A DNA stretch of 64,000 nucleotides, taken from positions 124,001-188,000 of the forward strand of contig NZ_JAGUCO010000004.1 of NCBI RefSeq assembly GCF_018271995.1, written 5' to 3'. Below the pieces are notes generated by a model. That model ran no database searches, was not told where the DNA came from, and was given only the letters and a program-made list of their open reading frames with translations. A program made the translations under genes and the position numbers. Below, piece after piece: positions 7,448 to 54,895 of the stretch (positions are counted from its first letter, which is position 1; each line of letters opens with the position of its first letter). The DNA comes from Carboxylicivirga linearis. Lineage in GTDB: Bacteria > Bacteroidota > Bacteroidia > Bacteroidales > Marinilabiliaceae.

Positions 7448-7450
7448 ATC

Positions 7451-8795: not shown

Positions 8796-8802
8796 ATAAT
8801 AA

Positions 8803-9903: not shown

Positions 9904-9929
9904 TCTTTAATGATTTTGGTTTATCAGAT

Positions 9930-9957
9930 AAAAAAATGAGCTCCGGGAAGAGCTCAT
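9930..9957 (-). terminator. Terminator of aminopeptidase P gene
   Basis: 8-bp stem ATGAGCTC/GAGCTCAT with a 6-nt loop, followed by T residues on the minus strand. Confidence 0.85.
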
Positions 9958-10015
9958 CCAAATATAGTCTTTTTTTAATTTCTCCTTCAACAAGCGTAGG
10001 CAGCACTATTTACTT

Positions 10016-37450: not shown

Positions 37451-37838
37451 AATAGATCAAAGTTTTGGTGCCTAAAGATAGCTATAAATAATAGTTTTAT
37501 TCATGTTACATAGGGCACATTGCCCCATTCCCAAATTTTTGAGTGCATAAAAATAGAATTTTAAAATCAATTTCCATGCTATTTTAGTCGTTTTTCTCTG
37601 AATATTCCAGATTCATTATTGTTTTAAAAAGTAAATCAGGCAACAATCAGTTTAATTCTTTTTCTATACCACTCTGCTTTTACAATAGAAACCTTCGTTT
37701 CTTCTTAAGTAACTGCAACAATAAATGCACCAAAAGCATCTATTTAGAAACTTTTTTTGGTGCCTAAGTCAACTTTATTGAAAAAACATCTATATTTGCA
37801 TCGCAAAAAACAGAAACGGCTGTTTACTTGAATTTAAT
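37451..37838. other. 388-bp intergenic region before tRNA-Ala
   Basis: AT-rich with no open frame of note. It contains upstream sequence of tonB (a TATCTTTA -7-like box near 37482-37489, minus strand) and the tRNA-Ala -7 box at 37791-37798. TTTTGGTGCCTAA occurs twice (near 37463 and 37755), probably by chance. Confidence 0.5.
37791..37798 (+). promoter_or_regulatory. -7 box of tRNA-Ala
   Basis: TATATTTG, 40 bp before the tRNA; no clear -33 element at the usual distance. Confidence 0.5.
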
Positions 37839-37912
37839 GGGGGATTAGCTCAGTTGGCTAGAGCGTTTGACTGGCAGTCAAGAGGTCATCGGTTCGATTC
37901 CGATATTCTCCA
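37839..37912 (+). tRNA. tRNA-Ala (anticodon GGC), probable hybrid at an integration site
   Basis: 74-nt cloverleaf. Acceptor GGGGGAT/ATTCTCC includes the G3-U70 alanine identity pair, discriminator A73 is present and CCA is not encoded. Anticodon stem TTTGA/TCAAG encloses CTGGCAG (anticodon GGC, 37873-37875); its first pair is a U-G wobble. The T-stem is ATCGG/CCGAT. The 3' half from 37874 is the left member of an 86-bp direct repeat whose right copy is at 45962, so this gene appears to have been reconstituted by a mobile element. Confidence 0.95.
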
Positions 37913-37959
37913 CATTGAAAATAAAGCGTTTGCAGGCTTCCACTGTGGGCGCTTTTTTT
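37874..37959 (+). repeat. Left 86-bp direct repeat (att-like)
   Basis: Covers the tRNA-Ala 3' half and its terminator. Differs from the right copy at 37882 (anticodon stem), 37889 and 37903 (the two partners of one T-stem base pair). Confidence 0.92.
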
Positions 37960-37960
37960 T
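37924..37960 (+). terminator. tRNA-Ala terminator
   Basis: AAAGCG ... CGCTTTTTTTT hairpin with a long loop directly after the tRNA. The same element is duplicated at 46011-46047. Confidence 0.75.
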
Positions 37961-38585
37961 GTTTTCACTAACCAAATGACTAACATTCCGATTAGTTAAA
38001 TCCAATCTTGTCATATACCTTAATAAGGAAATTCTTTTATTGCTTACATGAAAAAACTCATAAACGAATTTAAGCTATTTCATTCAAAGGTTAAGTTTAA
38101 TCCTATTAAGACCTTTAAAAGGTCTGATGTAAAAGTCAAAATCTTTCTAATAGTCATCCTATAAGAATAAATAAATTCAATCACTTTTAATTCCTCAAAG
38201 GTGCTTTATCGTAACGAAGTTAAAGTAGATTAATCTCTCATTCTGACATTAAAAAATACAAGAAGAATATAAATAAGCTTTAAAGAACTTATTTATATTA
38301 ACATGCATCAACGCACTATCTCTTAGAACCGTATTACATATACCTTCTATGAGCCAACCATCTTAAATTATCAATTTTGCCTTAATTTTTAAGATCTAAA
38401 TCTCAACATCTGATTCTAAAGCAATTCATTTTAATTGTTAAAACCAGCAAAGAATCTATTTTAAATTGTTCATCTTCCCTTTAAGCATATTGACATTCTA
38501 AGTACATGTTTTAAAGATAATTGAAACCTTCTAAGTTCTTCAATCGAGGCATGACCAATTACAGAAAAGATTTTAAGTAACTGAA
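37960..38585. other. Noncoding left end of the islet
   Basis: About 626 bp, very AT-rich, with no open frame beyond about 40 codons and no recognised RNA. Its first 26 bp weakly resemble the sequence after the right repeat (ACTAACCAAATGACTAAC versus ACTAGCAAAATGGCTAAC). It is probably degraded element DNA. Confidence 0.5.
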
Positions 38586-38615
38586 TAAAAAAAGCCGGTA
38601 CTGTACGCCGGCTTT
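38586..38615 (-). terminator. Terminator of the BspA-like gene
   Basis: Stem AAAGCCGG/CCGGCTTT with a 9-nt loop, followed by T residues on the minus strand, 19 bp after the stop codon. Confidence 0.85.
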
Positions 38616-38633
38616 AATAATGCAACTAATATT

Positions 38634-41147
38634 TTACTCCTTAATTATTTTTTTAACGATCGGCGCAGCCTCACTTTGTTGAATATAGACAATATAAACA
38701 CCCTTAGCTAAATAACTTAAATTAATTCTGGCCGCACCATCTTGTGGCACATCAATCATTTGTACTAACCGTCCGTTTGTGTTATAAATATTTATACCAA
38801 ACGCCTTTATATTTTCAGGAATTTGAATAGTAAGTGTATTTGTAAACGGATTAGGATAACATTTTACAGATTGAGAAGGTACTTTACTCAAAATAGTTGC
38901 TACTTCCCACTTGGGCCATAACTGAATATCTCCTGTACTACCCTGAGAAATTTCAGTTATAGGATCACCTGTAAGTTGTTCATTATCATACCAACCAAGA
39001 AAATTGTAACCTTCTTTAGTTGCATCTAATAAATTAATTGTAGCGGTCTCAATCGTATATTGTTGTGGGTTTGTATGCGATGCTTCATTTACATTATATA
39101 CAATGTTATATATGACGGCATTAAAGACTGCGGTAAATGCGTAATAAAGAGGTGTTGCAATATTATCTGATAATTTTTTACCATACTGATTTTTCCAATA
39201 TTCAAGCTCATATCCATATCGCTCTGGTGTAGGTAAAACAATTTTTTCCATCCTGTTATTATAAAATGCATATTCTCCAACCTCTACAAGACAGTCAGGC
39301 AAATGTACATCGCTTAAACGGTTATCATAAAAACAATATTCATAAATTTTTTCAACAGAGTTTGGAATGTCTACAGACAGCAACCATCTTCTCTCAAATG
39401 TTCGGTCAATATCTGAACCTAATTCTTTAATATTGATTCCATTAATCGATTCCGGAATTATAATATCTTTATAAATTTCATCAAAATTTACTGTTTTAAG
39501 TTGACCTTCATCGTTTAATTCAACGTCATCTGGTTGGAGAGTGTAGATACAACGGACCGCAATTCCTAAATGAAATTCAGAATAAAATGCTTGTTGATCA
39601 ATTGGCTGATAGTTTGAATTATACCATCCAATGCACGTTGGATAAATACTGGATGGCATCATTATATGAGTCAAAAGCTCATTGTTTTCAAATGCTTTTA
39701 ATTCTATCCTTTTTAAATAACTATTTTCATTAAAACTTACTTGGCTCAGATTGTTATTACTAAAAGCGTATGATCTAACACATGTAATACTGGCAGGTAT
39801 TTGAATCTCCTCTAATTGATTATCCATAAACATTCCTGTAGTAATTTCCTCAAAGTCTTGAGGGAAAACTATTGTATGTAATTTATTCTTCTCAAAAACA
39901 TAGTTTCCATATTTCGTAGGAGAATTAGGGAGTTCTAAATTAGTCAGTTGATTTTCACTAAAAGCTCTTATCCCAATAGATGTCAAACTCTCTGGAAGTA
40001 CTAAAGATTCTATATAATTGTTCTGAAATGCGTTATCTCCAATGACTTTTAAATCATTTGGTAAGTTAATATACGTAAGGTTGTTTTTGTAAAATGCTTT
40101 ATTTCCAATATATTGTAAATTTGCAGGTAATTCAATTGATTGAATAACATTATCTGCAAAACTATTTTCATGAATATGTGTTAGTGTTTTTGGTAAGTTG
40201 ACCGAAAGAACTCCTTTGGAACGAAAAAGATTAGAGTTACTTGAATTTTCCTGTCCTATAGCTTTCACAGTAATTCCATTAATTGTTTCAGGAATGGTAA
40301 TATCAGCATGATAAGATAAAGGGGTGTAAGTAATAATCTCACCAGATTCGTTTATTTCAAGTTCTTCTTCATTCAATGTGGCAAGGTAACTTATTTCATA
40401 TGTTGCATTGAAATCAATTATGGCCATATCTGGTCTAAATATGGTACTATATCGGCTTGTACCTACCCACCCTACAAAGTTAGGTGTGTTATTCTCCGGC
40501 AGCATCAATTTGGTCATTAAAGTTTGATCAAAAGGGTAATAACTCCCTATCTTTCCAATACTTTTTATTCCAGCAGGTAAGATAGTTTGTAATATTTTTT
40601 TATACCTAAATCCTCCATTTATAGCTTTGACCTCAATATTGTTTAGGCGCTCAGGAATAATAATGTAGTTATACTTTGCATCAAATGTTACATCTGTAAT
40701 TACACCATCTTGATCAATAGTTACATCTTGATCTTTTAAAGTGTAAGGAACAGCTAATCCATAAGTTGTTTCAAAGAATGTCATCAGTTCGCCTTGCTCG
40801 AAACTTTCAGAATGTCCATTAATCCATTGCCCGAATTCTCCTATTCCTGCCTTTAATAAGCTTGGTACAGTAATTCCTTCAAGATGATCGTTTTGAGAAA
40901 AAGCATTAAGCTCAATGATTTCAAGATTTGAATTCCCTTCAATGACTACTTCCTTCAAAAGATTATGATCAAATGCATATTTACCAATTCGTCTCACAGA
41001 AGAGGGAATGGTTACTTGGCCAAGTTTGCAATTTTGAAATGCATAGCTTCCAATTATCTCAAATGTGGAGGGTAGTTGAATACGGTTAATAGATTTATTG
41101 CTAAAAATCTTACCATCGATTATACCCCTAACAGTAATACCATCCAC
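38634..41147 (-). CDS. BspA-like LRR surface protein, C-terminal part (split gene)
   Basis: 837 residues in the same frame as the upstream part, separated from it only by a TAA at 41148-41150. It begins in mid-domain (VDGITVRGI completes the IIIPE/NGITVKGI motif of the repeats), so the GTG at 41147 is not a natural start. It continues the TpLRR/LRR_5 repeats with three further supermodule headers (near 137, 258 and 545). A Listeria-Bacteroides Flg_new-type domain follows (about 690-755, GYNFLGWYDNEQLTGDPI). The T9SS type A sorting domain (about 765-837) starts KCYPNPFTNTLTI and ends VKKIIKE. Without the N-terminal part it lacks a signal peptide and could not be exported. Confidence 0.85.
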   Translation of the reverse strand: MDGITVRGIIDGKIFSNKSINRIQLPSTFEIIGSYAFQNCKLGQVTIPSSVRRIGKYAFDHNLLKEVVIEGNSNLEIIELNAFSQNDHLEGITVPSLLKAGIGEFGQWINGHSESFEQGELMTFFETTYGLAVPYTLKDQDVTIDQDGVITDVTFDAKYNYIIIPERLNNIEVKAINGGFRYKKILQTILPAGIKSIGKIGSYYPFDQTLMTKLMLPENNTPNFVGWVGTSRYSTIFRPDMAIIDFNATYEISYLATLNEEELEINESGEIITYTPLSYHADITIPETINGITVKAIGQENSSNSNLFRSKGVLSVNLPKTLTHIHENSFADNVIQSIELPANLQYIGNKAFYKNNLTYINLPNDLKVIGDNAFQNNYIESLVLPESLTSIGIRAFSENQLTNLELPNSPTKYGNYVFEKNKLHTIVFPQDFEEITTGMFMDNQLEEIQIPASITCVRSYAFSNNNLSQVSFNENSYLKRIELKAFENNELLTHIMMPSSIYPTCIGWYNSNYQPIDQQAFYSEFHLGIAVRCIYTLQPDDVELNDEGQLKTVNFDEIYKDIIIPESINGINIKELGSDIDRTFERRWLLSVDIPNSVEKIYEYCFYDNRLSDVHLPDCLVEVGEYAFYNNRMEKIVLPTPERYGYELEYWKNQYGKKLSDNIATPLYYAFTAVFNAVIYNIVYNVNEASHTNPQQYTIETATINLLDATKEGYNFLGWYDNEQLTGDPITEISQGSTGDIQLWPKWEVATILSKVPSQSVKCYPNPFTNTLTIQIPENIKAFGINIYNTNGRLVQMIDVPQDGAARINLSYLAKGVYIVYIQQSEAAPIVKKIIKE

Positions 41148-44100
41148 TTACTCTGGTATAATAATAGAACGAATTAGTTTAAAATCAAGACTACACCCAG
41201 TAATCAAACCTTCGGCATTTAAAGTAAAATCACTACTTTGCAAAGTATATGGCTTAGCCATAGAATAAGATGCTTCAAAATCATTGATTATTTCACCAAT
41301 TGCATATTCTTGATTATTTGAACCTAACCATCCTTCGAAATCCGAGACTGTCGTCTCTGGTAACTTTATGCCTACTAGCTGTTCGTTGCCAGAAAAGGCC
41401 ATCTCATCTATTAATATCAGATTCGAAGGTTCTCTAACTATTATGTTGGTTAAATCGTTATTAGCAAAAGCATATGTTCCAATTTGCTTGACAGTTGCCG
41501 GAATTGTTAACTCCTTTAATACATTGTCTTTGAAGGCTTCATCACCAATTTCTTCAAGTTTGGCTGGTAATTGAAGACTTTCAAGATGTTCTCCCTTTAA
41601 ATAAGCTTTATTATTAAGTATCTTTACTGTTTTACCACCTATAGTTTCAGGTATAATTAAGTTAAGAGAGGGGCTTGGAGAGCCATATTTGCGGCTTAAC
41701 ACACCATTTTCGTCAACTGTGACATCTTCTTCTGTTAATGTATGTATATAACGCAGATAATAGGGACCACTTGATTCAACAACATCACCTGCTTCTAAAT
41801 ATTTATATTGTCTATCTCGCCAACCAAGATATGTACTATATGCAGAAGTTGGCAGTATTATGCTTATTCCTTGAAATGCATTAGCACCAATTTTCTTGAG
41901 TTTACAATTCTCTTCAAACGTTACCTTTTGTATTGAATTACTAGAAAAAGCACGATCTTGTATTGTTTCCACAGAGGCTGGAATGTTTATTTCCTTAATT
42001 TTATTGTCGATAAAAGCATCATTGCCAATATACTCAATCCCCTCAGAAAGGTGAACCATACGTAATCCCCTTAGTCTGAAAACTTGTGAATAAATTCCTT
42101 TAATAGTGACATCATTTACCACAGAAGGAATAATAATATGCTGATATGTACTATAATCGAAAATCGCATTTGTTATGTAGCCATCTTCATTTAATTTTAA
42201 TTCTTCAAAACTTAATTCATGCATAATTACCCAACTAAGTTCTTCTGTAAATTTGTCAACTTGTTCACCAGGGAAAAACGTTTCTGAAGCACAAGTCCAT
42301 CCATAAAAATCAGGATTATCAACAATTGGAAGTTCCATACTAATCAATGGATTGTCTGAAAAAGCATTCTTCTCCACCAATTTTAGTGCACTTCCAATTT
42401 CATAGTTTACTGTCTCAAGCTTATTATTTGTAAAAGCACCTTCGCGTATAGTTTCAATTCCTGCAGGTATGTCAACAGCACTTAAATTGTTATAATTGAA
42501 AATGTTGAAAGGTAGTTCATTTAGTCCTTTAGAGAGTTGCACAATTAAAAGCTCATTAGAAGAAAACGCACTGGATCCTATGCTGGTAATTCCATCTGGT
42601 AGAATCAATTTAGTCAATTGATTATCTCTAAAAGCACGGATTCCTATTGTAGTGAGTGTAGATGGTAATAATAATGTTTCTAAGCTGTTGCTTTCAAAAG
42701 CTTGTGATCCTATATTTTGCAAACCTTCGGGAAACGAAACATTGGTTAACAGGTTATATGAAAATGCTGATTCTTCAATATTAATTATAGAAGCAGGTAT
42801 GGTAAGATTTTTTATTTTATTACTTGCAAAAACACCTTTGTTTAAATTTGTGAGCGAAATGTTATCATCAAAACTTATTTGAGTTATCATATTGTTTGCA
42901 AAAGCTTCTTCACCTAGACTTTTCAAGGTAGTTGGGATATGAATTTCAACAATATCATTTTTAAAAAACGCTTTTTTCTCTATTGATTCCAATGCAGGTG
43001 AAATAATTAACTCAGTGATATTTGATGACTCAAAAGCACTTATACCTACCTTTTTAACTCCTTCCGGTAAATCTAGCATATTCAATCGGTTATTAGTAAA
43101 AGCATAATCACCGATATACTCCATTGTGGACGGAAAGAAAATCCGCTTAATGCCTTTCTGATAAAATACCCCTGACTCGTAATCTAACGCATCTGCAATA
43201 CCTGTTACAGTTTGTCCATCAAGTAACTCGGGAATATAGAGATATCCGGTAGGTGAAGAAGCTGTGCAGCTTAGTATTTTACCTTCCCCATCCATTATTA
43301 CATCTGCATCCGTTACTTCCGTGGCAAAGCGAGCTGTATATGGCGATTCAAAATCAGTTATATAATCTCCTGGCATTAAATTTTCTGAGCCGCTCCAGTC
43401 GACTAGTAATTTCCTGCCACTGGAGGGAAGCTGAATCTGCGTCAGGTAAGTATTGTAGAAAGCACCACTGTTAATTGACAACAACATGCTGTTTGCCTCA
43501 AACTTAACCTCCTTTAAAGGATTGGAATAAAAAGCTTTTTCACCAATGCTTTCCACACTTGAAGGAATCTCCAGTGTTTGTAGATTGTTATTGTAAAAAG
43601 CAAATTTTCCAATATCTTTCAGGTTACTAGGTAGAATTAGAGTTTTAATTGGATTTTGCCAAAAAGCATTCTCTCCAATATATTCAATGGAAGATGGTAA
43701 TTCAAGATTTTCAATTCCTTTAGATGCAAAAACACCAAGAATGTCATCTGCAATTCCTTTTACAATAGTACCATTAACTTCTTCAGGAATAATAACAATT
43801 GTTAGATCCTTACGATGGTATGCTGTTATGATTCCACTTGAACTAATTGTTAGGTCTTCAGGATTCAGAATTCCTGGTGATTGTAAGGTATAAGATCTTG
43901 TGAAATCATTGAAAGCCTCTCCAGCGGCATAAAGGTAACCATTGCTACTTTTCCAGTCGTAGGAACCGTATGATGATGTAGGCATTACTATCTGTGTCAG
44001 ATTATTAAAACCAAATGCATATTTACCAATATATCGAAGATTACTGTTACTCTTAAGATCAACCATTGTTAATTCGTTACTTCTGAAAGCATCTTCACTG

Positions 44101-44519
44101 ATGGTTTCAACATTTTGTGGAATGCTGAGGTTTTGAATTTTGTTTTCGGCAAAAGCACTTGTCCCGATACTTGTCACATTAGAAGGAATGCTCAAGCTGG
44201 CAAGTGCATTGTTGTAAAACGCTTTAGTTCCAATCTTTTTTAGTTCAGATGGCAAGGTAATCTCTACTAGCCCCTTACTCTCAAATACTCCTGTTGTACT
44301 ACTGTTTGCAATACCAGTTACTTGAATACCATCAATTTCATTAGGTATAATAATACTTGAAATACCTGTGCGTTTATATCTAATTATGGTCCCCCCATCC
44401 ATTTCTACATCGCTACTCGTTAATTGATACTGTGCAAAAAGACCCGGAACGGCCAGATTAAATAAGAGAAGGATTGCAAAGATCCTGCATTCCAACTTTC
44501 TCAATAGTGTATTGATCAT
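41148..44519 (-). CDS. BspA-like LRR surface protein, N-terminal part (split gene)
   Basis: 1123 residues with a signal peptide (hydrophobic 13-27, cleavage after GLFAQ) and many 23-residue TpLRR repeats of form IxIPxxVxxIGxxAFxxNxLxx. These are grouped into larger modules that each start with a header (xxxxDVxxDxxGxI ... IIIPExxNGxxVKGI); headers begin near residues 33, 218, 402, 768, 928 and 1092. Such proteins are adhesins or surface-layer components. The frame stops at IIIPE with TAA and continues with the rest of the same motif, so the intact gene (38634-44519) would encode about 1,961 residues. The break removes the secretion/anchoring C-terminus. It is the main cargo of the tRNA-Ala islet. 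Confidence 0.87.
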   Translation of the reverse strand: MINTLLRKLECRIFAILLLFNLAVPGLFAQYQLTSSDVEMDGGTIIRYKRTGISSIIIPNEIDGIQVTGIANSSTTGVFESKGLVEITLPSELKKIGTKAFYNNALASLSIPSNVTSIGTSAFAENKIQNLSIPQNVETISEDAFRSNELTMVDLKSNSNLRYIGKYAFGFNNLTQIVMPTSSYGSYDWKSSNGYLYAAGEAFNDFTRSYTLQSPGILNPEDLTISSSGIITAYHRKDLTIVIIPEEVNGTIVKGIADDILGVFASKGIENLELPSSIEYIGENAFWQNPIKTLILPSNLKDIGKFAFYNNNLQTLEIPSSVESIGEKAFYSNPLKEVKFEANSMLLSINSGAFYNTYLTQIQLPSSGRKLLVDWSGSENLMPGDYITDFESPYTARFATEVTDADVIMDGEGKILSCTASSPTGYLYIPELLDGQTVTGIADALDYESGVFYQKGIKRIFFPSTMEYIGDYAFTNNRLNMLDLPEGVKKVGISAFESSNITELIISPALESIEKKAFFKNDIVEIHIPTTLKSLGEEAFANNMITQISFDDNISLTNLNKGVFASNKIKNLTIPASIINIEESAFSYNLLTNVSFPEGLQNIGSQAFESNSLETLLLPSTLTTIGIRAFRDNQLTKLILPDGITSIGSSAFSSNELLIVQLSKGLNELPFNIFNYNNLSAVDIPAGIETIREGAFTNNKLETVNYEIGSALKLVEKNAFSDNPLISMELPIVDNPDFYGWTCASETFFPGEQVDKFTEELSWVIMHELSFEELKLNEDGYITNAIFDYSTYQHIIIPSVVNDVTIKGIYSQVFRLRGLRMVHLSEGIEYIGNDAFIDNKIKEINIPASVETIQDRAFSSNSIQKVTFEENCKLKKIGANAFQGISIILPTSAYSTYLGWRDRQYKYLEAGDVVESSGPYYLRYIHTLTEEDVTVDENGVLSRKYGSPSPSLNLIIPETIGGKTVKILNNKAYLKGEHLESLQLPAKLEEIGDEAFKDNVLKELTIPATVKQIGTYAFANNDLTNIIVREPSNLILIDEMAFSGNEQLVGIKLPETTVSDFEGWLGSNNQEYAIGEIINDFEASYSMAKPYTLQSSDFTLNAEGLITGCSLDFKLIRSIIIPE

Positions 44520-44876
44520 GAGGTTTTGTTAAAAAGTTAAGACAATTTCGGATTTGTATTTAAAATCCAGTAATTTTATACTAAAATAATATATTTTTTT
44601 AATTGTTCACTATTGGGAATATAGACATTAGAGTTTTTCTTTAGTATAATAGCTTTCTTCCCAACCATCAAAACTACATTTCACAAGGTAATTTTCATGA
44701 AACATTTTAATAAAAAAGATGAGCAATAAATTTATTCATACTATAGGAACCACCCAATGAAAACAATAAGAAGGGCCTTTTCTGACCGTTTTCACATATT
44801 AATTATGGTTAATCAACATTCCATTATATACCTAAAGTCAATACTTCTCTAGATTAGAGAAATAATCCCCATATGT

Positions 44877-45838
44877 TCATAAAATCACATTACCTTCATC
44901 TTCGATTGGCACCATTACACCTATTATTGACCTACGATTTATTAGTGGTAGATATTCAGCTATATCAAAACCTTGATTTAAGTTAAATACTAGATTATTA
45001 TTCTTCATGTAAGGTAGAAACATTAAATACCGTTTCATGTAATAAGGAGTTAAGCGTTTGTGGTTTTCTCTTTAATCTGTCAACAACTCCAAGTCCGGAA
45101 ATAAATAGCAAATATGTCCTTTTTAGACTCTACTCTTCTCAACGCTAATACCCGTTTAGGTTTTCTGAAATCAACCTAATAAACCCAAATAAATAAACAC
45201 TTGTTATTATGGCAGTTTTTTCACTTTTAACAATTGCGTTATCCCTTGGAGCTTTTTCCAATATCAAGTGCTCTCCAAAATAACATTATTTAAGGTTATA
45301 ATCTTTAAGTCCCATCATTATGTCAGCCTATGTAAAAAATAGGAATGGCTTCTTTATTCTTTTTGCTATCCTCTTCATTTAAAAGTAAATTTGTTACTCC
45401 GAATCATTCCCCTTTAATCCATTACCCAAAACACTGGTGATCCTTTCCAATACTTAAAACTACCTATTTGGTAATTTTGAAAGACATTTTTTACATCTTC
45501 AGTCAATAACGTTTTAACCATTTAGATACATAAATTGCTTTATATCACAATAGACCATGCACATAACCTTCCATCAACATAGGAAAGAGTTTTTCAATTA
45601 CCTCAGTAGGATTAAATAACTTTCCTTTATATTACTCAATTTGCTCTTTATTTAAAATATCACCATAAGGACTTAGGTGATCTGCACACTTAACCTCCAC
45701 ATCGCATCTCCAATATTCTGATGATAATAGCTTTGCTATTTCAAGATCTTTGTATCGAACAAAACTCTTTGACCTTCCAAGACTAAAATGTTTCCTTTCT
45801 GCTATTCTTTAATAATCTTCATATTACTGCTTAATCAT
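44877..45838 (-). pseudogene. Decayed DUF6371-like mobile-element gene
   Basis: Degraded coding sequence on the minus strand, with several stops and frame changes. Readable pieces in order: KSFVRYKDLEIAKLLSSEYW followed by RCDVEVKCADHLSPYGD (a zinc-finger-like start as in YGRCDR..CGYHLNPY proteins), VFQNYQIGSFKYWKGSPVFW, GLKDYNLK(stop)CYFGEHLI, KSEKTAIITSVYLFGFIRLI, a segment around GLGVVDRLK and ETVFNVSTL, and GFDIAEYLPLI. This order resembles DUF6371 (toprim-like) proteins carried by Bacteroidetes conjugative elements and prophages. The family name is from memory; the protein-like decay is clear from the sequence. About 360 bp between it and the BspA gene hold nothing recognisable. Confidence 0.65.
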
Positions 45839-45961
45839 ATTCTTAAATCAGAAGAGAGGCAGCAGTATGGTAACAACATCCTTATTATGCATATAATTTA
45901 TTGTGTATTGACACATTTAAAAAGCAATAAACTATCAAAAACAAATGTAATATTTTAACTT

Positions 45962-46047
45962 GCAGTCAAAAGGTCAGCGGTTCGATTCCGCTATTCTCCA
46001 CATTGAAAATAAAGCGTTTGCAGGCTTCCACTGTGGGCGCTTTTTTT
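45962..46047 (+). repeat. Right 86-bp direct repeat: displaced tRNA-Ala 3' half plus terminator
   Basis: Starts GCAGTCAAAAGG within the anticodon loop and includes the T-arm (AGCGG/CCGCT), acceptor 3' strand ATTCTCCA and terminator. It has no 5' half, so it is not a functional tRNA. Its TCAAA would pair perfectly with TTTGA of the intact tRNA 5' half, suggesting it is the original host 3' end. Confidence 0.9.
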
Positions 46048-46073
46048 GTCTTACTAGCAAAATGGCTAACTTT

Positions 46074-47063
46074 TCATGAAATAAGTTGCGTCTTAAATTT
46101 CTTCAGTCTCTCAAATCCGTCATCAATCGATATTTTTGGTTTATATCCTAAAACTTTTACGGCTTTTGATATATCAAACCAATGTGCCTGACAAAGCTCT
46201 TTTATAACCATTCGCGTTGTTTGAATATTTTGATTAGGTAGAAAATACTTATAAAACATTTCTTGCAGACCAACCACACCTAATGCTAATGATCGGGGAA
46301 CAGATTTTGTAATAGAAGCATATCCGTACACATCAAGAATTCTATTTATAAAATCCCATATTTTTATAGGTTCTCCATTGGTTATAAAATAACAGTTTCC
46401 GGCGACCATAGGATTATTCATCAATCCCAACAATGACAGCTTAAGTGCATCAATAAAATTATCTATATAGGTTGTATCCACCAATTTATTATAATAGCTA
46501 ATCCTAACGAGCTTTCCTGTTTGGGCATTTTTCAATATGCCGGGAATAATATGCCTGTCAGTTGGTCCCCAGATCAGATGCGGTCTAAGACTAATTGTTT
46601 TTATATTATTCCCATTCGACTGAATAATGTACTTTTCAGCCAACGCCTTTGTTATAGTATAATTAGAAAGTTGATGTGCCGGATAAAGAATTGATTCATT
46701 CCCATTTTCAATATCTTCACCACCAAAAACAACACTTGCAGAACTAGCATAGATAAAGTAGCTAACATTATTTCCATTACATGCATCAATTAACAATTTT
46801 GTTGCATCAACATTAGTACTGTAAAAATCGGAATATTTGCCCCACACTCCTACTTTGGAAGCCAAATGAAATACAGCCTCACAACCTTTACAACAATGAT
46901 TCAAAAACGCCAAATCTCTGATATCACCTATCATAAGCTCAGCTATTGCAGAAAGATCATCGGGCTGCCGTGAAGTACACCTAACATCGTAGCCTTCTGA
47001 CACCAGCATCTTAACCAGCTCCCGACCAACAAATCCCGTTCCTCCTGTTACTAGCACTTTCAT
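46074..47063 (-). CDS. oleD: OleD-like NAD(P)-dependent reductase
   Basis: 329-residue short-chain (extended SDR) reductase of the 3-beta-HSD/sterol type. It has GGTGFVGRELV at residues 7-17 and the catalytic Tyr/Lys in YTITKALAEK (about 144-153). In ole clusters OleD reduces the 2-alkyl-3-ketoacid from OleA to the 2-alkyl-3-hydroxyacid. It overlaps oleC by 4 bp and is the last gene of the operon. The stop lies only 27 bp from the islet right repeat, but the C-terminus looks complete. Confidence 0.82.
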   Translation of the reverse strand: MKVLVTGGTGFVGRELVKMLVSEGYDVRCTSRQPDDLSAIAELMIGDIRDLAFLNHCCKGCEAVFHLASKVGVWGKYSDFYSTNVDATKLLIDACNGNNVSYFIYASSASVVFGGEDIENGNESILYPAHQLSNYTITKALAEKYIIQSNGNNIKTISLRPHLIWGPTDRHIIPGILKNAQTGKLVRISYYNKLVDTTYIDNFIDALKLSLLGLMNNPMVAGNCYFITNGEPIKIWDFINRILDVYGYASITKSVPRSLALGVVGLQEMFYKYFLPNQNIQTTRMVIKELCQAHWFDISKAVKVLGYKPKISIDDGFERLKKFKTQLIS

Positions 47064-48673
47064 GGTTGATACGATTGATATTTTCGGGCAAGTTTCTCGC
47101 GCTGAATTTTAGCCTGATGCCTCGCATCCATTGGCATGTATTTGACCTGTTCAAAACAACGAACCTTCAACTTAGAGTGTTTAGCTATTTTTTTAAGCTC
47201 TTCTTTGAAAAACTCAAACTGTTTTGCTGACAACTCCTTTCTACATTCAACGCACAATAATGGCATATTATTTCCCTCCTTAGATCTAGCCTGAATTAAA
47301 GCTGTTCGATTGACAACCGGATGTCGGTTAAATACTCTTTCAATGGGTATTGGAAACAACATCGCATTTTGATCATAAACGATATGAGACTTTCGTCCAA
47401 ACATCCATAAATAACCATTCTCATCCACTAAACCTACATCACCCATTCGATGCCAATACAATTTCTTTTCTTCATCCCATACTTTTGAAGTCAAATATTC
47501 ATCGGCGGATAAATATTGCTGGGACACAACTTCTCCTCGTACGACAATTTCACCTATCTCATTAATACCCTTTAAATCTACATTGTGCCAACTATTGAAT
47601 TTCTCATCAGAAATAGCAATTATTTGCACCTCTACACCTTGCAATACTTTTCCAACACAAACACCTTTTAATGCATTAACCTCATCAATTAATTCTATCA
47701 TTTTTTGATCATCAATCTCAGTTAAAGGCAATGCTTCCGTAGCACCATATACTGCATGCACAGAACAATCATTAGATAATCGCTTACAGAACTTTTCAAT
47801 TAAAACAGGTTCAACAAAAGCACCCGCTGTAATAACTCTTTTTAGTGAAGGCAACTCAAATTGTTTTATCTCTGCAAAATCAACCAACTTTTTTATAATT
47901 AATGGCGAGCAAAACAAATGGGTACATTTATTCTCATTGATAGTTTTAATCAAATTCTGTGATTTTAATGATCCGGGTCTGGTCATATCCATTTTAGTAA
48001 AAGATAAGGTCAATCCTATTGACATCTCCAGAAGCCCTACCAATGCAAATGTACAGCAGTCAATATCCCGGGAGTTATATTTAAAGTGAGATATTAAAAT
48101 ATTAACCTGAGCTTCCAACATTTTATTCGTATAACAAACAGCTTTTGGAGGCCCGGTACTTCCACTTGTAAATACGATGGATGCCAAATCGGTAGGCTTT
48201 GACTTAATGATAGGTAATGATGAATTTAGATCTGTATTTTTGCGCCTCGGTATACCCAAATGGAATTTACCTTTAGACAAAACAATTGATTGACACCCTT
48301 TAAACAATTGTGGATTTATCAGTCTAATAAGATGACTGATGGGAATACCGATAAAGTAATCCAACTTTATACTACGAAGTGATTGAAGCATATTGCTAAT
48401 TCCCATTCCTGTATCTATAAATACGGGGACAGCAGCTAACCTTAACAATGCATATACAATAGCAAACAGATCTGCTCCGGGTTTTATCAGTACAAGTACT
48501 TTGGAATGTTGCTTCACCCCAATATTTTGAAAATTGACAGCATAAGCATCTATTCGTTTTACAAAATCATGGTAAGTAATGCTTTTCCGTCCAATGAAAG
48601 CTATTTTATCCGGTCTCTCACTGGCAACCTGATAAATTCTGGTTATGATGTTATTTCCATTGGGCTTATTCAT
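47060..48673 (-). CDS. oleC: OleC-like AMP-forming enzyme (beta-lactone synthetase)
   Basis: ANL-superfamily adenylating enzyme of 537 residues. The P-loop is VFTSGSTGPPKAVCYTNK (about 175-192). Further motifs are YGATEALPLTEID, GDVGLVDENGYLWMFGR, and the C-terminal lysine segment KIQREKLARKYQ. This combination beside OleA, OleB and OleD homologues points to OleC, which activates the 3-hydroxy acid with ATP and closes it to a beta-lactone. An ordinary acyl-CoA synthetase is the alternative. The ATG at 48673 (MNKPNGNN) overlaps the upstream stop by 4 bp and is preferred over an in-frame start at 48706. Confidence 0.82.
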   Translation of the reverse strand: MNKPNGNNIITRIYQVASERPDKIAFIGRKSITYHDFVKRIDAYAVNFQNIGVKQHSKVLVLIKPGADLFAIVYALLRLAAVPVFIDTGMGISNMLQSLRSIKLDYFIGIPISHLIRLINPQLFKGCQSIVLSKGKFHLGIPRRKNTDLNSSLPIIKSKPTDLASIVFTSGSTGPPKAVCYTNKMLEAQVNILISHFKYNSRDIDCCTFALVGLLEMSIGLTLSFTKMDMTRPGSLKSQNLIKTINENKCTHLFCSPLIIKKLVDFAEIKQFELPSLKRVITAGAFVEPVLIEKFCKRLSNDCSVHAVYGATEALPLTEIDDQKMIELIDEVNALKGVCVGKVLQGVEVQIIAISDEKFNSWHNVDLKGINEIGEIVVRGEVVSQQYLSADEYLTSKVWDEEKKLYWHRMGDVGLVDENGYLWMFGRKSHIVYDQNAMLFPIPIERVFNRHPVVNRTALIQARSKEGNNMPLLCVECRKELSAKQFEFFKEELKKIAKHSKLKVRCFEQVKYMPMDARHQAKIQREKLARKYQSYQP

Positions 48674-49530
48674 TTTTTCGATTGATAAACAGCTAATGAA
48701 GTACAAATCCCCGCACCAACTGAAATAAATAATATGGAGTCAGAATTCAAAAAATCATCAAACCTCATTGGGTTATGAAACTGATCTTTTGACAGTAGCA
48801 TTAAATCCTCTTCATCTCTCTTAATAAACAATCGAACATCTCTCCAATTAAATGATTGAAGCACCTCACAAACCACATTTGATTGCACATTGATAAAAAC
48901 AAGAGCATCAAAATTCAGCAATAAAATATCTTGCTTTTCAACCCATTCATTTAAGGTTTGACATAAACAATAAGCACATAATTCGTCAAAATCCTTTTCC
49001 GCATTAATCTTCAGTTTTACTTGTCCATCATTCAAATATCCCCAGGTAGAATATTTATTCATAAACTCAGGATATGTTTTTAAGTAAAATATTGTAAATC
49101 CCGAGTCATTCAATGTTGCTGTAAGCAAAAATACAGTTGCCTCATCCGTATCTTTTTTATTATGCATTGATATATTTCCAATCACCAAGGCATATTTTAC
49201 TTTATTAGCATTAATAAATCCGTCAACCAATTGAAACGCTTGAATTAATCCACACGCCCCCTTTGTTAAATCGAACGTTATAACTGACTGTTTTTCTGTA
49301 GCCGACGGAGTATTCTGCTCTAAATAATCGAGAAAGAAAGCTGATAAGGCAGGCTCAACCATATGATTTTCTCTATACACACCTGTACTAATTAGCATAT
49401 CAGGCCTAATGGAGATTTTATTTAAATATTGCCCCATTTTATCCAATGCTTTTTGGGCACAGAAGATATACCCTTCTTCTTTACTACCATTGCCTGTGAA
49501 GCTAACAACCGATGTGATTTCAGTTCCCAT
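48670..49530 (-). CDS. OleA-like thiolase-fold protein, probable non-catalytic partner
   Basis: 286-residue protein of the KAS III/OleA thiolase fold, divergent. It keeps a cysteine in the active-site position (Cys93 in DLTKGACGLIQAF) and the EPALS motif (Glu59) shared with the neighbouring OleA. The HQ-type histidine segment is replaced (LVFINVQS) and no GNTAS-type asparagine is visible. It is also about 50 residues shorter at the N-terminus. Paired OleA homologues with one degenerate member are known in lipstatin biosynthesis (LstA/LstB). It overlaps both oleA (11 bp) and oleC (4 bp). Likely role: heterodimer subunit controlling chain selection or donating the glutamate. Confidence 0.72.
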   Translation of the reverse strand: MGTEITSVVSFTGNGSKEEGYIFCAQKALDKMGQYLNKISIRPDMLISTGVYRENHMVEPALSAFFLDYLEQNTPSATEKQSVITFDLTKGACGLIQAFQLVDGFINANKVKYALVIGNISMHNKKDTDEATVFLLTATLNDSGFTIFYLKTYPEFMNKYSTWGYLNDGQVKLKINAEKDFDELCAYCLCQTLNEWVEKQDILLLNFDALVFINVQSNVVCEVLQSFNWRDVRLFIKRDEEDLMLLSKDQFHNPMRFDDFLNSDSILFISVGAGICTSLAVYQSKK

Positions 49531-50569
49531 AACGATCTACAATAGCATTTAACCTAAATACAACCAATCCCATCACTAATCCCGATGCATGACTGAGAAG
49601 CATTATTCTTTCTCCTTTTTGCACCTTCTTTGCCATCAACAGATGATATAAAGCAATAAAATGAGTGGTTGAGGCAGTATTGCCATACAGCTCAAGATTT
49701 GATACCACCTTTGGAACCTTCTTTACTTTAAAATGATTAAGTAATCGTTTTGCTCCAATATTAATTGCTTTTTGAGATGTTTGATGTGGAATAAGAATAT
49801 CTATTTTATCAAACGACAATTGATGTTTCTTCAGGCATACCTCAATAAAATCTGCGGACTCATCCAAGGCTGCTTTGTGAAGTTTTTTCATAAGAGTTTG
49901 CATATATGCACCCGGAAACGATGTGCTTAAAGCACCGTAACAGAGATTTTGATACCTGGCATATGTATTTTGCTCCAACACTTCAAAACCTGCATCACTT
50001 TCGTTTCTTGAAAGTATAACAGCAGCACCTGCATCACCAACAGTTAAAGAAGCCAATTCCTTGGTATCGAAAGTTGATATTGTTTTGGAGGCATTATGAG
50101 CAATTGTAGAAATAAACTCTCCGCTAACTACCATACAGTTTCTAACAATGCCTTGTTTAATGAAATTATCTGCAATCAATACACCCGAAATCATTCCGGC
50201 ACACGCATTGGTTATATCAAAATAAATGGCATGATCAGCCCCTATTTTTTGTCTGATTTATAGCGATAAAGCAGGCTCATATTGATATTCAAGTTGATGA
50301 TTAAACTTTGAAATTGAGCAACAAATCACCATTTCAATTTCGTGAGCCTGAAATTCAGAATGGCTTAAGCAATCAAGCGCTGCTTCTGACGATAAGAACA
50401 ATGCATCTTCCTCTCCCGAACATATGCGACGCTCTATTATCCCGCTCACATCTTCTAATTTGGAGCAAACAGGTAAAACTATTTTTTCAGTGAGCTCCGA
50501 GATTGTCTCAATACGATCCGGCAGTTTAACTCCTATACTCTCAATATGACTAGATGATAATGGTTTCAT
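49520..50569 (-). pseudogene. oleA: OleA-like condensing enzyme interrupted by one in-frame stop
   Basis: 349-codon KAS III/OleA-type gene that would condense two fatty acyl-CoAs head to head into a 2-alkyl-3-ketoacid. The catalytic set is present: Cys123 (DITNACAGM), His262 (IPHQTSQKA) and Asn297 (LYGNTAST), plus the Glu of EPALS before the break. Codon 104 is TAA (50258-50260), immediately after EPALSL; the same frame then continues as IRQKIGADHAIYFDITNACAG, so this is one substitution and not a frameshift. The start at 50569 (MKPLSSSHIESIG) overlaps oleB by 20 bp. Either a recent pseudogene or a sequencing error; a restart at 50194 would lose the catalytic cysteine. Confidence 0.8.
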
Positions 50570-51389
50570 TAACTCTTTTTTTGATGATAGAAGCCATTTC
50601 ATATCCGGCATCTTCCGGCAGGAAATGTCCACCGTCGATAAGAAAATGCTCATGATCAGAACTCGAGTTTAATCTTTGTTTCAACTCTTCATAAAAAGAA
50701 AATGTGATGGGGTCATTTTTACCAAATATGGTTGTTATGGGGAACGATGCCGTTATTAACTGCTTCCAGATTGAATCTGTTATTGATTTTCCTAATGGAA
50801 ATAGTGCTGGAATTAGTCTCAATGCTTTCCGACTTTGTTGCTTAAACGGTTTATTGTAGTTGCTTATCTCATTAAAAGACAAACGTACTTTTGAAAACAA
50901 CCACACGACTAATCCGACAGGAATCCAGGGTGAATATTGTGAAAAAACTTTCCATGCCTTTAAAAGCATGGGTAATCGACAATCACCCCAGGGAACAAAT
51001 CCATTAGAGATCATCAATCCGTTTATTAATTCAGGATTACAAACAGCATAATTTGTTCCTATTATTGCTCCCCAGTCATGTCCAACAATGGTTAACTTTT
51101 TAAAATTAAGTCTTTCCAGAAAGGCACCTAACCAACTAGTAAGGTTTTGGAGAGTGTAAAATGCACTATTCAAAGGCCTAAATGTTAAACCAAAACCTGG
51201 TACATCAGGGGCAACTACTCTAAATCCTGCACTTATCAGTTCTTGAATAATTTTTCGAAATAAATAGCACCAGGTAGGCACTCCATGAAGTAATAGTATT
51301 ATTGGTTGTTCACTATTTCCTTCATCAATATAATGAGTCTTGATATTTTGAACACTAACATACTTTGATTGATATGGAAAATCAATCAT
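50550..51389 (-). CDS. oleB: OleB-like alpha/beta hydrolase (beta-lactone decarboxylase)
   Basis: Alpha/beta hydrolase of about 279 residues in the haloalkane-dehalogenase/OleB group. It shows LLLHGVPTWCYLFR (oxyanion loop), nucleophile Asp in IVGHDWGAIIG (Asp, not Ser), FGKNDPIT and the catalytic His in DGGHFLPEDAGYE. OleB converts the beta-lactone to a cis-olefin and CO2. The ATG at 51389 (MIDFPYQSKY) matches the family start; alternatives are the ATG at 51422 and a TTG at 51485. It is the first gene of the ole operon. Other dehalogenase-like hydrolases share this Asp, so context carries the call. Confidence 0.78.
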   Translation of the reverse strand: MIDFPYQSKYVSVQNIKTHYIDEGNSEQPIILLLHGVPTWCYLFRKIIQELISAGFRVVAPDVPGFGLTFRPLNSAFYTLQNLTSWLGAFLERLNFKKLTIVGHDWGAIIGTNYAVCNPELINGLMISNGFVPWGDCRLPMLLKAWKVFSQYSPWIPVGLVVWLFSKVRLSFNEISNYNKPFKQQSRKALRLIPALFPLGKSITDSIWKQLITASFPITTIFGKNDPITFSFYEELKQRLNSSSDHEHFLIDGGHFLPEDAGYEMASIIKKRVNETIII

Positions 51390-51592
51390 CCAGCAGTTCA
51401 GAATATTTCGTTCCCCATCCATTGATACTCTCTTTGCCCCGATGTATCGGATTATTCTCTCCTTCTTCCATACAATCCCCAGCAAACAAAATTGATTGCA
51501 TGAATATTAATTAATTTACGAAGAAAAAAGTAAAGAGTCAAAGTATAATATCAACAACAATGATTATAACTTACTAAATGTAAATAAAGTAG

Positions 51593-54500
51593 TCACTCAA
51601 CGGCTCTTGGTATAGTAAAAACAAACCTTGTGCCTTTGTCCTGTTCCGAATGAACATTAATTGAACCGTTATTCTTCTCAACTAAATCCTTACATAAGAA
51701 TAAACCTATGCCAGTTCCGGTTTCGCCCGATGTACCGTAGGTACTTCTTAATCCTTCCTGTTCAAAAACAAAGGGTATTTTTTCCGGAGCAATACCTATT
51801 CCATTATCCTCAACCGTAACTTCTACCATTTTACCTTGACCCCTGGCAATTACTTTAATTATACCATTTGTTTTTGTAAACTTGATAGCATTACTAACTA
51901 AATTTCTGACCACAGTCTTAAACATATCGATATCGCCAAAAGCCTCCATACTTTCTTCGCACTCAATTCTAAATTGGATGTCTTTTTGTTGAAAAGCCTC
52001 ATTCAAGTGTGTAATTGAAGTATGAATGGCATTTCTAACCGTAAATTTGTGACGCGATACTTTCACCTCCTTCGTTTGGCCTTTTGCCCACATCAACAAA
52101 TTCTGGAGTAAATCGAAAATATGGCTGGCTGAAATATTAACGTTACGAGCTAACTTCTTTCGCTCGTGTGCTTCTCCTTCTTCTTCTGCCCCCATTAAAA
52201 GCTCTGACATACCCAAAATGGTATTAAAAGGACTGATTAAATCATGAGCTATTATTGAAAACAGCCTGTCTTTAGTTGTATTGAGTTCTTTCAGCCGCTT
52301 ATTACTACTTACAAGTTCATCGGATTTTTCAGATAATATTCTGGATTGTTGCTCTAGCTGAGCTTGCCTCTCTTCTAGCAACTTGTTTAGATTATCCAGG
52401 TATTCCGCCTGAGTTAGTAATTCTTCGTTTGTCTGCCTTAGTTCTCTCGTTTTTTTATGTACTTGTATAGCCAGCAATTTACGCTGACGCCTGATTCGCA
52501 ACGAATGAATATTTAGAGTAATCCAACCAATAATTACAAACAGAATCATCACCAAAACAATAAATATGGAAGTCCTGTACCATGGAGGCTTCACCTTAAA
52601 TGATACCTTTGCTACATTCGCACTCCATACCCCATCATTGTTAGCAGCCTTTACTTGAAAAGCATATTTACCTGGCTGTAGATTAGTAAAACTTGCTGTA
52701 GTTTGTTTGGTTGGAGATTGCCAGCCATCATGCAAACCATCCAATTTGTACATATACATATTGTCTTCAGGATTATTATACGATAATCCTAAATACTCAA
52801 AGGTGATGATTTTATCATCATACTCAATCTCGAAATAATTGGCATAATTAATATGCTTATCAAGAATGGATGATGAATCATTAGGTTGTGTATTCTGATT
52901 TAACACGTGCAAATTGGTAAACACTACATCTGGAGGATAAATATTTGTAGTCACTTCATCAGGCATAAAATGAGTGATACCTTTTGTTCCTCCAAAGTAT
53001 ATTCTACCTTCCCAATCTTTATACTGAGATCTGGGAACAAAGCTATTGTTGTTCACTGCCTCCATTCCTTCATACAACTGAATATCACCTAACTCTGGAT
53101 CAAGTCTGATAATTCCATTATAAGTACTTAGCCATACTGCATTATGTCCATCTTCCTGAATACCACATATTGTTGTTTTAAGCTTTGTACGATCAAAACG
53201 TTGAAATGTACCATCTGCAGAATATAGGTTCAGCCCATTATCCGTTCCAACCCATATCCTTCCTTTACTATCTTCAAATAGTACAAAAACATTGTTACTA
53301 CTAATGGAAGTTGAATCATCAGAATTAAAATAAAAATTTTTGAATTGATCAGTATTCTTTGGCATCATACTCAGTCCCCACACTGTTGCCACCCACAAAT
53401 CTCCGCTTGACGCACACAAAATATCATTTACATATGGATTAGCTAAACCTGAGTTTTCAGTGTTAAAGTGAATGAAGCGTTTGTTATCTTTATCAAATCT
53501 GTCTATCCCTTTACCGTATGTTATTAGCCACAAATCGTTATTTACATCCTCTGTAATTAAACGAATATCATTGCTTGAGATAGAAGATGAATCAGCAGGG
53601 TTGTAACGGTAATTGACGAAACGATTTTTTTCCGAATCATATTTTTGCAATCCTCCCTCATAAGTACCTACCCAGGTAACTCCTTCGGTATCGGTATACA
53701 AACTAAATACTGTTCCGGCCCCTAAACCATGCGGCTTGTTTTGATCATGCCATTTTTCCTCTTTCTTCCAATGTCCATAATCAAAAATAGTTATCCCCGG
53801 ACCGCTATTAGCAATCCAAAGACTACCATTAACATCCTTTGTAATAGCGTTAACTCCAACATTGTTCAAATACCATTTATGAGCTTTATTATTAAAAATA
53901 CTTTGAAATCCGCTTGGAGGTACTCTTAACCCCAAGCCTTCGCCATTATGTCCAACCCATATATTATTTTGATTATCCTGATAAATAATTGCCGGTGATG
54001 TTCGTATACTTTGCGGATCCTCACTGTAGAAATAATAACCGTAGAAGCTCTTTGATTCCTTATTATAGAATTTTAATCCAGTATAATCAATCGACCATAT
54101 TTTTCCTTCAGTAGAAATCATTATGTCAACAATATGATCTGTATCAGGCAACCCGACAGGGTGTTTTGTAAACACCTTTTTATTGATATCATATGATATC
54201 AACCCTTGCCCTCTGGACCCTATCCATAAAGTATCATTATTCAATTCTAAATCCTGAATATTTTCAGTTGGCACCCTGGATGGCAATTCATAAGATGAGA
54301 AGTTTAATAACTTCCCTGTATTATTCTTGTAATAAGACAATCCTCCATTTGCCATGGATCCAATCCATATATTATCATGAGAATCGAAAATAAATTTACT
54401 TATCATTCCTTTTGGAGCATCTATAAAATGCCTAAAAACATTCTCTTTTCTATGGTATTTATATAAGGAAGCATCAACACTAACAAAAATGTCTCCTTCA

Positions 54501-54895
54501 CTATTCTCTGCAATACAACCTATATTAATTGCTTCACCTTTACGATTAGCCCCATCTATATGATATCTGCGAAAGTTATCTTTAAAGTTATTATATGAGT
54601 GTAACCCATTTTGAGTGCCTACCCAAAGAGTTGATTTACTATCAATAAAAAGTGTGGTAATATAATAGTGTTGCAGCTGAGTTGTATCTTTTGAATTATC
54701 GTAATAGGGTGTGAATACCCTACCATCAAAACGGTTGAGTCCATTAATAGTTCCAACCCAAATATATCCGGTTGAATCTTTTGTAATAGAGGTGATAAAG
54801 GTATTTGATAGACCTTGCTTTTGGTTGAAGTACCTGAACTTTAATTCTTCGGGTTGCGCATTACTTTTGTGCACCATTAAACTAATTAACAGCAA
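51593..54895 (-). CDS. Periplasmic beta-propeller sensor histidine kinase (Reg_prop/Y_Y_Y type)
   Basis: About 1100 residues. Order: export signal, a large two-propeller ligand-binding sensor of Reg_prop repeats (about 20-680, motifs such as IWVGTINGLNRFD and LWVGTQNGLHSY), a Y_Y_Y domain (about 690-775), one membrane helix (about 785-805), a coiled coil, HisKA with phospho-acceptor His884 (IIAHDLISPFNT), and HATPase (NLVSNAIKF, DNGIGI, GTGIGLFLCKDLVEK). Unlike hybrid HTCS proteins it lacks receiver and AraC domains, so it must signal to a separate regulator, none being adjacent. The start is uncertain: the frame extends upstream through a Lys-rich n-region (to about 54955) without ATG, GTG or TTG, leaving the TTG at 54895 as the only standard start. 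Confidence 0.9.
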   Translation of the reverse strand: MLLISLMVHKSNAQPEELKFRYFNQKQGLSNTFITSITKDSTGYIWVGTINGLNRFDGRVFTPYYDNSKDTTQLQHYYITTLFIDSKSTLWVGTQNGLHSYNNFKDNFRRYHIDGANRKGEAINIGCIAENSEGDIFVSVDASLYKYHRKENVFRHFIDAPKGMISKFIFDSHDNIWIGSMANGGLSYYKNNTGKLLNFSSYELPSRVPTENIQDLELNNDTLWIGSRGQGLISYDINKKVFTKHPVGLPDTDHIVDIMISTEGKIWSIDYTGLKFYNKESKSFYGYYFYSEDPQSIRTSPAIIYQDNQNNIWVGHNGEGLGLRVPPSGFQSIFNNKAHKWYLNNVGVNAITKDVNGSLWIANSGPGITIFDYGHWKKEEKWHDQNKPHGLGAGTVFSLYTDTEGVTWVGTYEGGLQKYDSEKNRFVNYRYNPADSSSISSNDIRLITEDVNNDLWLITYGKGIDRFDKDNKRFIHFNTENSGLANPYVNDILCASSGDLWVATVWGLSMMPKNTDQFKNFYFNSDDSTSISSNNVFVLFEDSKGRIWVGTDNGLNLYSADGTFQRFDRTKLKTTICGIQEDGHNAVWLSTYNGIIRLDPELGDIQLYEGMEAVNNNSFVPRSQYKDWEGRIYFGGTKGITHFMPDEVTTNIYPPDVVFTNLHVLNQNTQPNDSSSILDKHINYANYFEIEYDDKIITFEYLGLSYNNPEDNMYMYKLDGLHDGWQSPTKQTTASFTNLQPGKYAFQVKAANNDGVWSANVAKVSFKVKPPWYRTSIFIVLVMILFVIIGWITLNIHSLRIRRQRKLLAIQVHKKTRELRQTNEELLTQAEYLDNLNKLLEERQAQLEQQSRILSEKSDELVSSNKRLKELNTTKDRLFSIIAHDLISPFNTILGMSELLMGAEEEGEAHERKKLARNVNISASHIFDLLQNLLMWAKGQTKEVKVSRHKFTVRNAIHTSITHLNEAFQQKDIQFRIECEESMEAFGDIDMFKTVVRNLVSNAIKFTKTNGIIKVIARGQGKMVEVTVEDNGIGIAPEKIPFVFEQEGLRSTYGTSGETGTGIGLFLCKDLVEKNNGSINVHSEQDKGTRFVFTIPRAVE

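Follow-up and report, generated by a model that had tools for sequence, protein, structure and literature searches.

The operon and its layout

The stretch of DNA analysed here (the window; 64,000 nucleotides, positions 124,001 to 188,000 of contig NZ_JAGUCO010000004.1 of Carboxylicivirga linearis, phylum Bacteroidota) carries five overlapping genes related to the ole genes for head-to-head fatty-acid condensation. A preliminary description had read them as a complete oleB-oleA-oleA2-oleC-oleD set with two OleA homologues. In order of transcription, the genes and the main feature within them are as follows:

50550-51422, minus strand: gene in the oleB position, a haloalkane dehalogenase homologue of the subfamily I (HLD-I) side; its inner ATG at 51389 was the start used in the preliminary description
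49520-50569, minus strand: oleA, an lstA-like beta-ketoacyl-acyl carrier protein synthase III (KAS III) gene with Glu, Cys, His and Asn residues, interrupted by an in-frame TAA
50258-50260, minus strand: the in-frame TAA within oleA, 5' of the catalytic Cys codon, identified from the sequence and its reading frames
48670-49530, minus strand: oleA2, an lstB-like KAS III partner with Glu59 kept and His and Asn lost
47060-48673, minus strand: oleC, beta-lactone synthetase family (family scores and tree)
46074-47063, minus strand: oleD, 2-alkyl-3-oxoalkanoate reductase family (family scores)

Successive genes overlap by 20 bp (hydrolase/oleA), 11 bp (oleA/oleA2), 4 bp (oleA2/oleC) and 4 bp (oleC/oleD). 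The overlapping five-gene layout was described correctly, and the same order stands in four other loci. The set is not complete, since oleA is cut ahead of its active-site Cys by a stop codon that had been missed.

Recurrence of the five-gene order

A profile scan of genome contigs gave 123 relatives, 80 of which were kept for a neighbourhood search. The exact order and strand of the five genes were found in three of the 80 (L025, L026 and L027), and a further locus with the same five-gene order (L163) comes from the phylum of L026. The main aligned stretches of L025 (titled Bacteroidales) and L027 (titled Chlorobiota) are 90-96% identical in DNA, flanks included. Because these two loci are one lineage by DNA, the operon is known from three independent lineages outside the window. 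At this level of identity, one of the two record titles may be wrong. Given this recurrence, the order is not due to chance. Protein identity between the window and L027 is 51.9% for OleA, 52.6% for OleD, 40.5% for OleC, 37.9% for the OleB-like protein and 33.6% for OleA2.

Two further loci of the 80, L086 (Deltaproteobacteria) and L076 (Myxococcota), carry a KAS III pair and a canonical-type OleB in other arrangements. An OleB-type match of 131 bits at L040, which stands without a high-scoring OleC or OleD, and matches of 22-58 bits at L034 and L035 were treated as background.

OleC-family genes are uncommon in the phylum of the window. They were found at E <= 1e-90 in at least 8 of 395 genomes (a lower bound, with the three best candidates per genome scored) and over the family cut-off in 3 of 395, own genome included. 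Among 40 relatives, 13 of them congeners, the only OleC-family match at E <= 1e-90 was in the genome of the window itself. Another locus of the same phylum (L013 in G386, positions 1-11382) holds polyketide synthase and non-ribosomal peptide synthetase (NRPS) genes, a desaturase gene and oleB-oleC-oleD, and no OleA-type match was found in the stretch read.

A lipstatin-type KAS III pair

The oleA2 product has 286 amino acids, no Pfam match and one weak KAS III score, and it was recognised mainly through LstB-like relatives. In tblastn searches of plasmids, OleA2 and OleC matched lipstatin-like clusters of Streptomyces and Rhodococcus, in which the order is KAS III, hypothetical protein, OleC, OleD, NRPS and formyltransferase, with small differences between records (the stretch of one record stops inside the NRPS gene). 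Identity of the window OleA to the cluster KAS III proteins is about 33%, and it reaches 39% with one from Rhodococcus DK17; OleA2 is 20-30% identical to the partner proteins.

According to the available passages of a review (PMC12141560), LstA C128A, LstA H271A and LstB E60A are inactive and LstA N305A yields no soluble complex. The window OleA carries Cys, His and Asn at the LstA positions, and Glu59 of OleA2 aligns where LstB E60 is expected. Conservation of these residues was assessed in 80 OleA and 82 OleA2 sequences, including the window and L163 (only OleA matches above 150 bits and OleA2 matches above 100 bits were used, and L045 and L087 have no OleA). Cys, His and Asn are each kept in 79 of the 80 OleA sequences and Glu in 77, and both Glu59 and Cys93 are kept in 82/82 OleA2 sequences. 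The His...Asn pattern occurs in 79/80 OleA and 0/82 OleA2 sequences, as judged with search patterns that were not quite identical. The residue pattern of an LstAB heterodimer, an LstA-type Cys/His/Asn set beside an LstB-type Glu without His or Asn, is therefore found in the window, where the LstA-type gene is interrupted. A role of oleA2 as a second active OleA was rejected, with the His...Asn pattern missing as in all the aligned partners. The conserved Cys93 adjoins the position of the KAS III active-site Cys and is kept in every LstB-like partner despite the loss of His...Asn.

A single grouping of the operon OleA proteins with canonical single OleA was rejected by the approximately unbiased (AU) test (p = 0.0019). 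Against PRK09258, the single-OleA type (cut-off 285 bits), the intact OleA of L027 scores 145.9 bits and fails, and the reference OleA of L119 scores 462.9 bits. The predicted OleA2 structure is of low confidence (mean predicted local distance difference test (pLDDT) score 55) and matches FabH folds, which was counted as support only. The likeness of the adjacent pair to LstA/LstB, already remarked on in the preliminary description, is borne out by homology, gene order, residues and this AU rejection. These comparisons support OleA/OleA2 as an LstA/LstB-type pair, which would presumably act as a heterodimer.

Searches with OleA2 gave little beyond these loci. A single-sequence search of 295 genomes of the class matched only the own genome, and a scan of viral contigs gave no match. 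Profile matches occurred in 136/149 and 80/82 genomes, and all of those outside G683, G684 and G1057 were below 90 bits and were taken as KAS III background. In rhodococci and mycobacteria (L020, L033, L036 and L041), an LstA/LstB-like pair was seen, and the stretch read shows no OleC or OleD of high score.

OleC and OleD

The window OleC scores 478.2 bits against PRK09274 (cut-off 478, just reached), 391 against OlefBLtnSynShew, 338 against OlefBLtnSynXan and 166 against the best ordinary ligase family, and it lies under the Xanthomonas and Shewanella equivalog cut-offs (900 and 850). It was placed inside the OleC clade relative to three outgroup ligases with a bootstrap of 98. Within that clade the operon group joins L086 (99) and then lipstatin-type OleC at 92, apart from canonical OleC, which is only suggestive of a place on the lipstatin side.

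The window OleD scores 294 bits against oxyalk_red_Shew and 264 against OleD (cut-offs 580, both unreached), compared with 120 against HpnA and 79 against SdmB. In the OleD tree, built without the L090 OleD, resolution is poor and only the grouping of the operon proteins with L086 is well supported (95). Canonical references were checked in the same way, and L117 OleC (1038.9 bits) and L117 OleD (640.1 bits) exceed the Xanthomonas-type and OleD cut-offs, respectively. Family scores and the OleC tree led to the rejection of OleC as an ordinary ligase and of OleD as a sterol-type reductase, the two outcomes named in the preliminary description as contradicting its assignments, so the OleC identity given there was upheld, and OleD, by far the best family for the reductase although its cut-off is unreached, was favoured.

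The hydrolase in the oleB position

The top PDB sequence matches of the window hydrolase are the haloalkane dehalogenases 5esr and 6f9o. All four relatives with the same gene order exceed the PRK00870 cut-off of 265 bits (L026 421.6, L163 383.6, L025 321.5 and L027 320.8 bits). The Asp nucleophile, the Trp that follows it, the cap Trp (whose role in HLD-I is assumed here), the acid Asp and the base His are all kept in the window, L025, L026 and L027. In the tree, the five operon hydrolases group with five dehalogenases that we take to be HLD-I members (DpcA, 6f9o; DccA, 5esr; DmrA, 4mj3; 2xt0; 7avr), and canonical OleB groups with DhmeA of subfamily III (HLD-III). Uniting all OleB-position proteins with canonical OleB in one clade was rejected (AU p = 7.6e-6), as was uniting the window hydrolase alone with canonical OleB (AU p = 8.4e-4). 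The name oleB given to this gene in the preliminary description did not survive these scores, trees and AU tests, which show a non-OleB ancestry for the hydrolase both here and at L025, L026, L027 and L163.

At E <= 1e-15, the genomes of the four relatives each have a single PRK00870 match, which is the operon gene; the own genome holds a second match, at 59 bits. Hydrolase and oleA overlap by 4 bp in L025, L027 and L163 and are separated by a 32-bp gap, by the listed starts, in L026. The variable residue of the HGxP motif is V in the window, L025 and L027, E in L026 and N in L163, and E in the five reference dehalogenases.

Proposed pathway and alternative products

In the proposed pathway, OleA, an LstA-like protein with Cys/His/Asn, and OleA2, an LstB-like one that would supply the essential Glu, would condense two acyl-CoAs head-to-head to a 2-alkyl-3-oxo acid, OleD would reduce this acid and OleC would close a beta-lactone. 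These three steps are assigned because of family membership. The HLD-I hydrolase would then attack the beta-lactone with its Asp nucleophile. The most likely outcome is loss of CO2 and formation of a cis-olefin, in which case the enzyme would stand in for canonical OleB after a separate recruitment. Decarboxylation is favoured because the fold of canonical OleB decarboxylates beta-lactones and because the hydrolase gene and oleA stay together in four lineages, the window counted. Canonical OleB, of the same superfamily as the HLD-I hydrolase, is named as a beta-lactone decarboxylase in the available passages of PMC10503415.

LstAB-type pairs with OleC and OleD otherwise occur largely in lipstatin-like or nlt-like actinobacterial clusters, haloalkane dehalogenases are hydrolases, and OleC leans to the lipstatin side. 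These observations would suit a product that is the beta-lactone itself or a ring-opened 2-alkyl-3-hydroxy acid, with the HLD-I protein serving as a beta-lactone hydrolase (for self-protection or release) and not as a decarboxylase. An FtsX-like permease frame, seen by eye about 1 kb from the L026 operon on the other strand, could be part of an exporter for such a product. A dedicated hydrolase would, however, undo the ATP-costing OleC step, and the fold is capable of decarboxylation, as in canonical OleB (PMC10503415, in the passages available). Inspection by eye of the operon surroundings in the window, L026 and L027, whose flanks were not covered by a family search, revealed no NRPS or formyltransferase gene. 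A lactone or hydroxy acid product is considered unlikely.

The kept Asp, Trp, cap Trp, Asp and His in the window and L025-L027, and the scores of 4/4 relatives over the PRK00870 cut-off, would also be expected if the enzyme were a genuine haloalkane dehalogenase whose target is a halogenated fatty-acyl substrate or product. Against such a role, the gene stays strictly linked to oleA across four lineages, which points to action on the lactone, and no halogenase was recognised by eye in the listed frames around the L026, L027 and window operons, where no family search was made. Dehalogenation is regarded as improbable, more so than lactone hydrolysis.

The pathway as a whole, that is, LstAB-type condensation, reduction, beta-lactone closure and an HLD-I step that is most likely decarboxylative, in an operon that is probably off in this genome, is favoured here by a slender margin over even chances. 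The broader proposal, that beta-lactone decarboxylation evolved twice, with an HLD-I dehalogenase recruited independently of OleB into a hybrid pathway begun by a lipstatin-type KAS III heterodimer, is offered tentatively and falls somewhat short of even chances.

Several observations weigh against the proposed pathway. The window hydrolase scores 218.4 bits against PRK00870, under the cut-off, and is called on this score a homologue and not a member of the family. Few dehalogenase references are present in the tree, support inside the HLD-I side is low (29-60), and the single grouping of the operon hydrolases is uncertain (another tree joined four of these at 0.989). HLD-I and HLD-III come out level in the structure comparison (Z 26.6, 26.5 and 26.4; hydrolase model pLDDT 69), and the absence of other folds in that comparison proves nothing. 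The alternative to a place of OleC on the lipstatin side is not significantly worse (AU p = 0.058). The window oleA is interrupted, and window branches are long relative to those of the sister pair (OleA2 1.50/0.23, OleB-like 1.17/0.31, OleC 1.00/0.29, OleD 0.67/0.26 and OleA 0.49/0.35). Given these branches, constraint on the window operon may be relaxed.

State of the window copy

The single TAA in the oleA frame (50260-50258) is codon 104 of about 349. The frame 3' of the stop continues to the normal gene end and holds the Cys, His and Asn. The first start after the stop is an ATG at 50194, and reinitiation there would not restore the Cys because this ATG falls just past its codon. In L025, L026, L027 and L163, oleA is open where the window has TAA, and the alignment column of the stop is variable among relatives. 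A genetic-code effect was ruled out, as the other genes of the operon and the neighbouring genes end at standard stops. The oleA gene is not intact in all pair loci, being in two frames in L038. In L029 (5777-6894), the frame listing shows the LstA-type gene of a gammaproteobacterial pair broken into three pieces, so other broken copies exist besides that of the window. The window copy of oleA is probably dead or carries an assembly error, and given this nonsense codon the pathway is probably off in this genome. The least acceleration of the five, in OleA, suits a recent stop or an assembly error.

Three further features bear on the site of the operon; the second tRNA copy is an insertion scar, and the kinase gene lies upstream of the operon:

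37874-37959: first copy of the 3' half and terminator of tRNA-Ala(ggc)
45962-46047, plus strand: second copy of the tRNA-Ala 3' half and terminator, adjoining oleD (83/86 identical to the first copy)
51593-54895, minus strand: sensor histidine kinase gene with a regulator propeller, with a homologue (58%) in congener G645

The two copies form an 86-bp direct repeat that brackets 8.1 kb. Between them lies a BspA-like leucine-rich repeat gene (38634-44519), which is split, like oleA, by a single in-frame TAA (at 41150, minus strand). The end of oleD is 26 bp from the second copy, and the BspA-like gene comes next. Within 37000-52500, the intact tRNA was the sole Rfam match. In G645 (a single contig), a different cargo of 6.2 kb lies after this tRNA and includes an integrase-like gene whose Pfam scores narrowly miss the cut-offs. 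A tRNA 3' copy comes next, and the homologue of the window sensor kinase gene lies 51 bp further on, with no ole operon between. Judged from this comparison, the operon was either gained in the genome of the window or lost in G645, at a site that appears prone to insertion.

With the stop in oleA, the long window branches, OleC-family matches at E <= 1e-90 in 0/13 congeners, the absence of the operon at the matching site of G645 and the similarly interrupted BspA-like gene nearby, the operon may be a decaying cluster without a product in this genome, one that lost function recently through the nonsense codon in oleA, next to a tRNA site prone to insertions. The remaining four operon genes are nevertheless open, and the low acceleration of OleA means that the stop would be recent or an assembly error. 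The site itself could be compared in only 1/6 congeners, as the other five fetched did not match the window downstream genes past the tRNA. We consider decay as probable as its opposite, and it is compatible with the proposed pathway for the relatives.

Relation to known systems

The operon resembles the Streptomyces lipstatin cluster lstABCD(EF) in the order A, A2(B), C, D. It also shares the features of the LstA/LstB KAS III heterodimer, an LstA-type Cys/His/Asn protein and a partner with the essential Glu and without His and Asn, here known from the genes. It differs from that cluster in that no NRPS or formyltransferase gene was seen after oleD (where the tRNA-Ala 3' copy and the BspA-like gene follow), in the HLD-I hydrolase gene that comes first in the operon, and in an OleA that shares about 33% identity with lipstatin-like LstA. 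With canonical oleABCD of the Xanthomonas type it shares the OleC family and, by best score, the OleD family, a haloalkane-dehalogenase-fold protein and a presumed head-to-head condensation, but it has two KAS III genes instead of one OleA, a hydrolase outside the OleB/HLD-III branch, and an oleA that is not intact in the window (assembly error possible). The hydrolase is like DpcA, DccA and DmrA (4mj3) in its PRK00870 sequence family and its Asp/Trp/Trp/Asp/His set, and unlike them it is genetically tied to an ole-type operon and mostly differs in the HGxP residue. The L086 and L076 clusters have paired KAS III, OleB, OleC and OleD as well, but their OleB groups with canonical OleB and their gene order is different.

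In the available passages of a survey based on an OleA pattern ending in NACL and on Micrococcus OleBC and OleD queries, no ole clusters are reported in Bacteroidetes (PMC7158056). This agrees with the preliminary description, which did not regard that phylum as a classic source of the pathway. The window OleA reads NACA and does not fit the survey's pattern (PMC7158056, passages available). Passages of another study give three contexts for the OleA proteins examined, namely oleABCD, oleBC fusions and oleACD without oleB (PMC7064751), and passages of a third mostly assign olefin genes to the Planctomycetes-Verrucomicrobia-Chlamydiae (PVC) group and Deltaproteobacteria (PMC10176705). Of 80 genomes with secondary lipid synthases, some of them from Bacteroidetes, 44 were reported to have ole genes, and the passages available do not specify which (PMC3098273); a published ole member from Bacteroidetes is possible because of the make-up of this set. 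No description of an operon of HLD-I, LstAB-type, OleC and OleD genes was recognised in the open-licence PMC literature, as represented by titles, abstract starts and passages.

Here a presumed heterodimer of the lipstatin type is linked, outside Actinobacteria, to what is likely a hydrocarbon-type operon, in a phylum in which a survey found no ole clusters, and surveys based on single-OleA patterns would miss such clusters. If beta-lactone decarboxylation did evolve twice, at least some HLD-I proteins would have a natural, non-dehalogenating role. A second recruitment of an HLD-I-side dehalogenase to break beta-lactones would bear on the natural role of dehalogenases.

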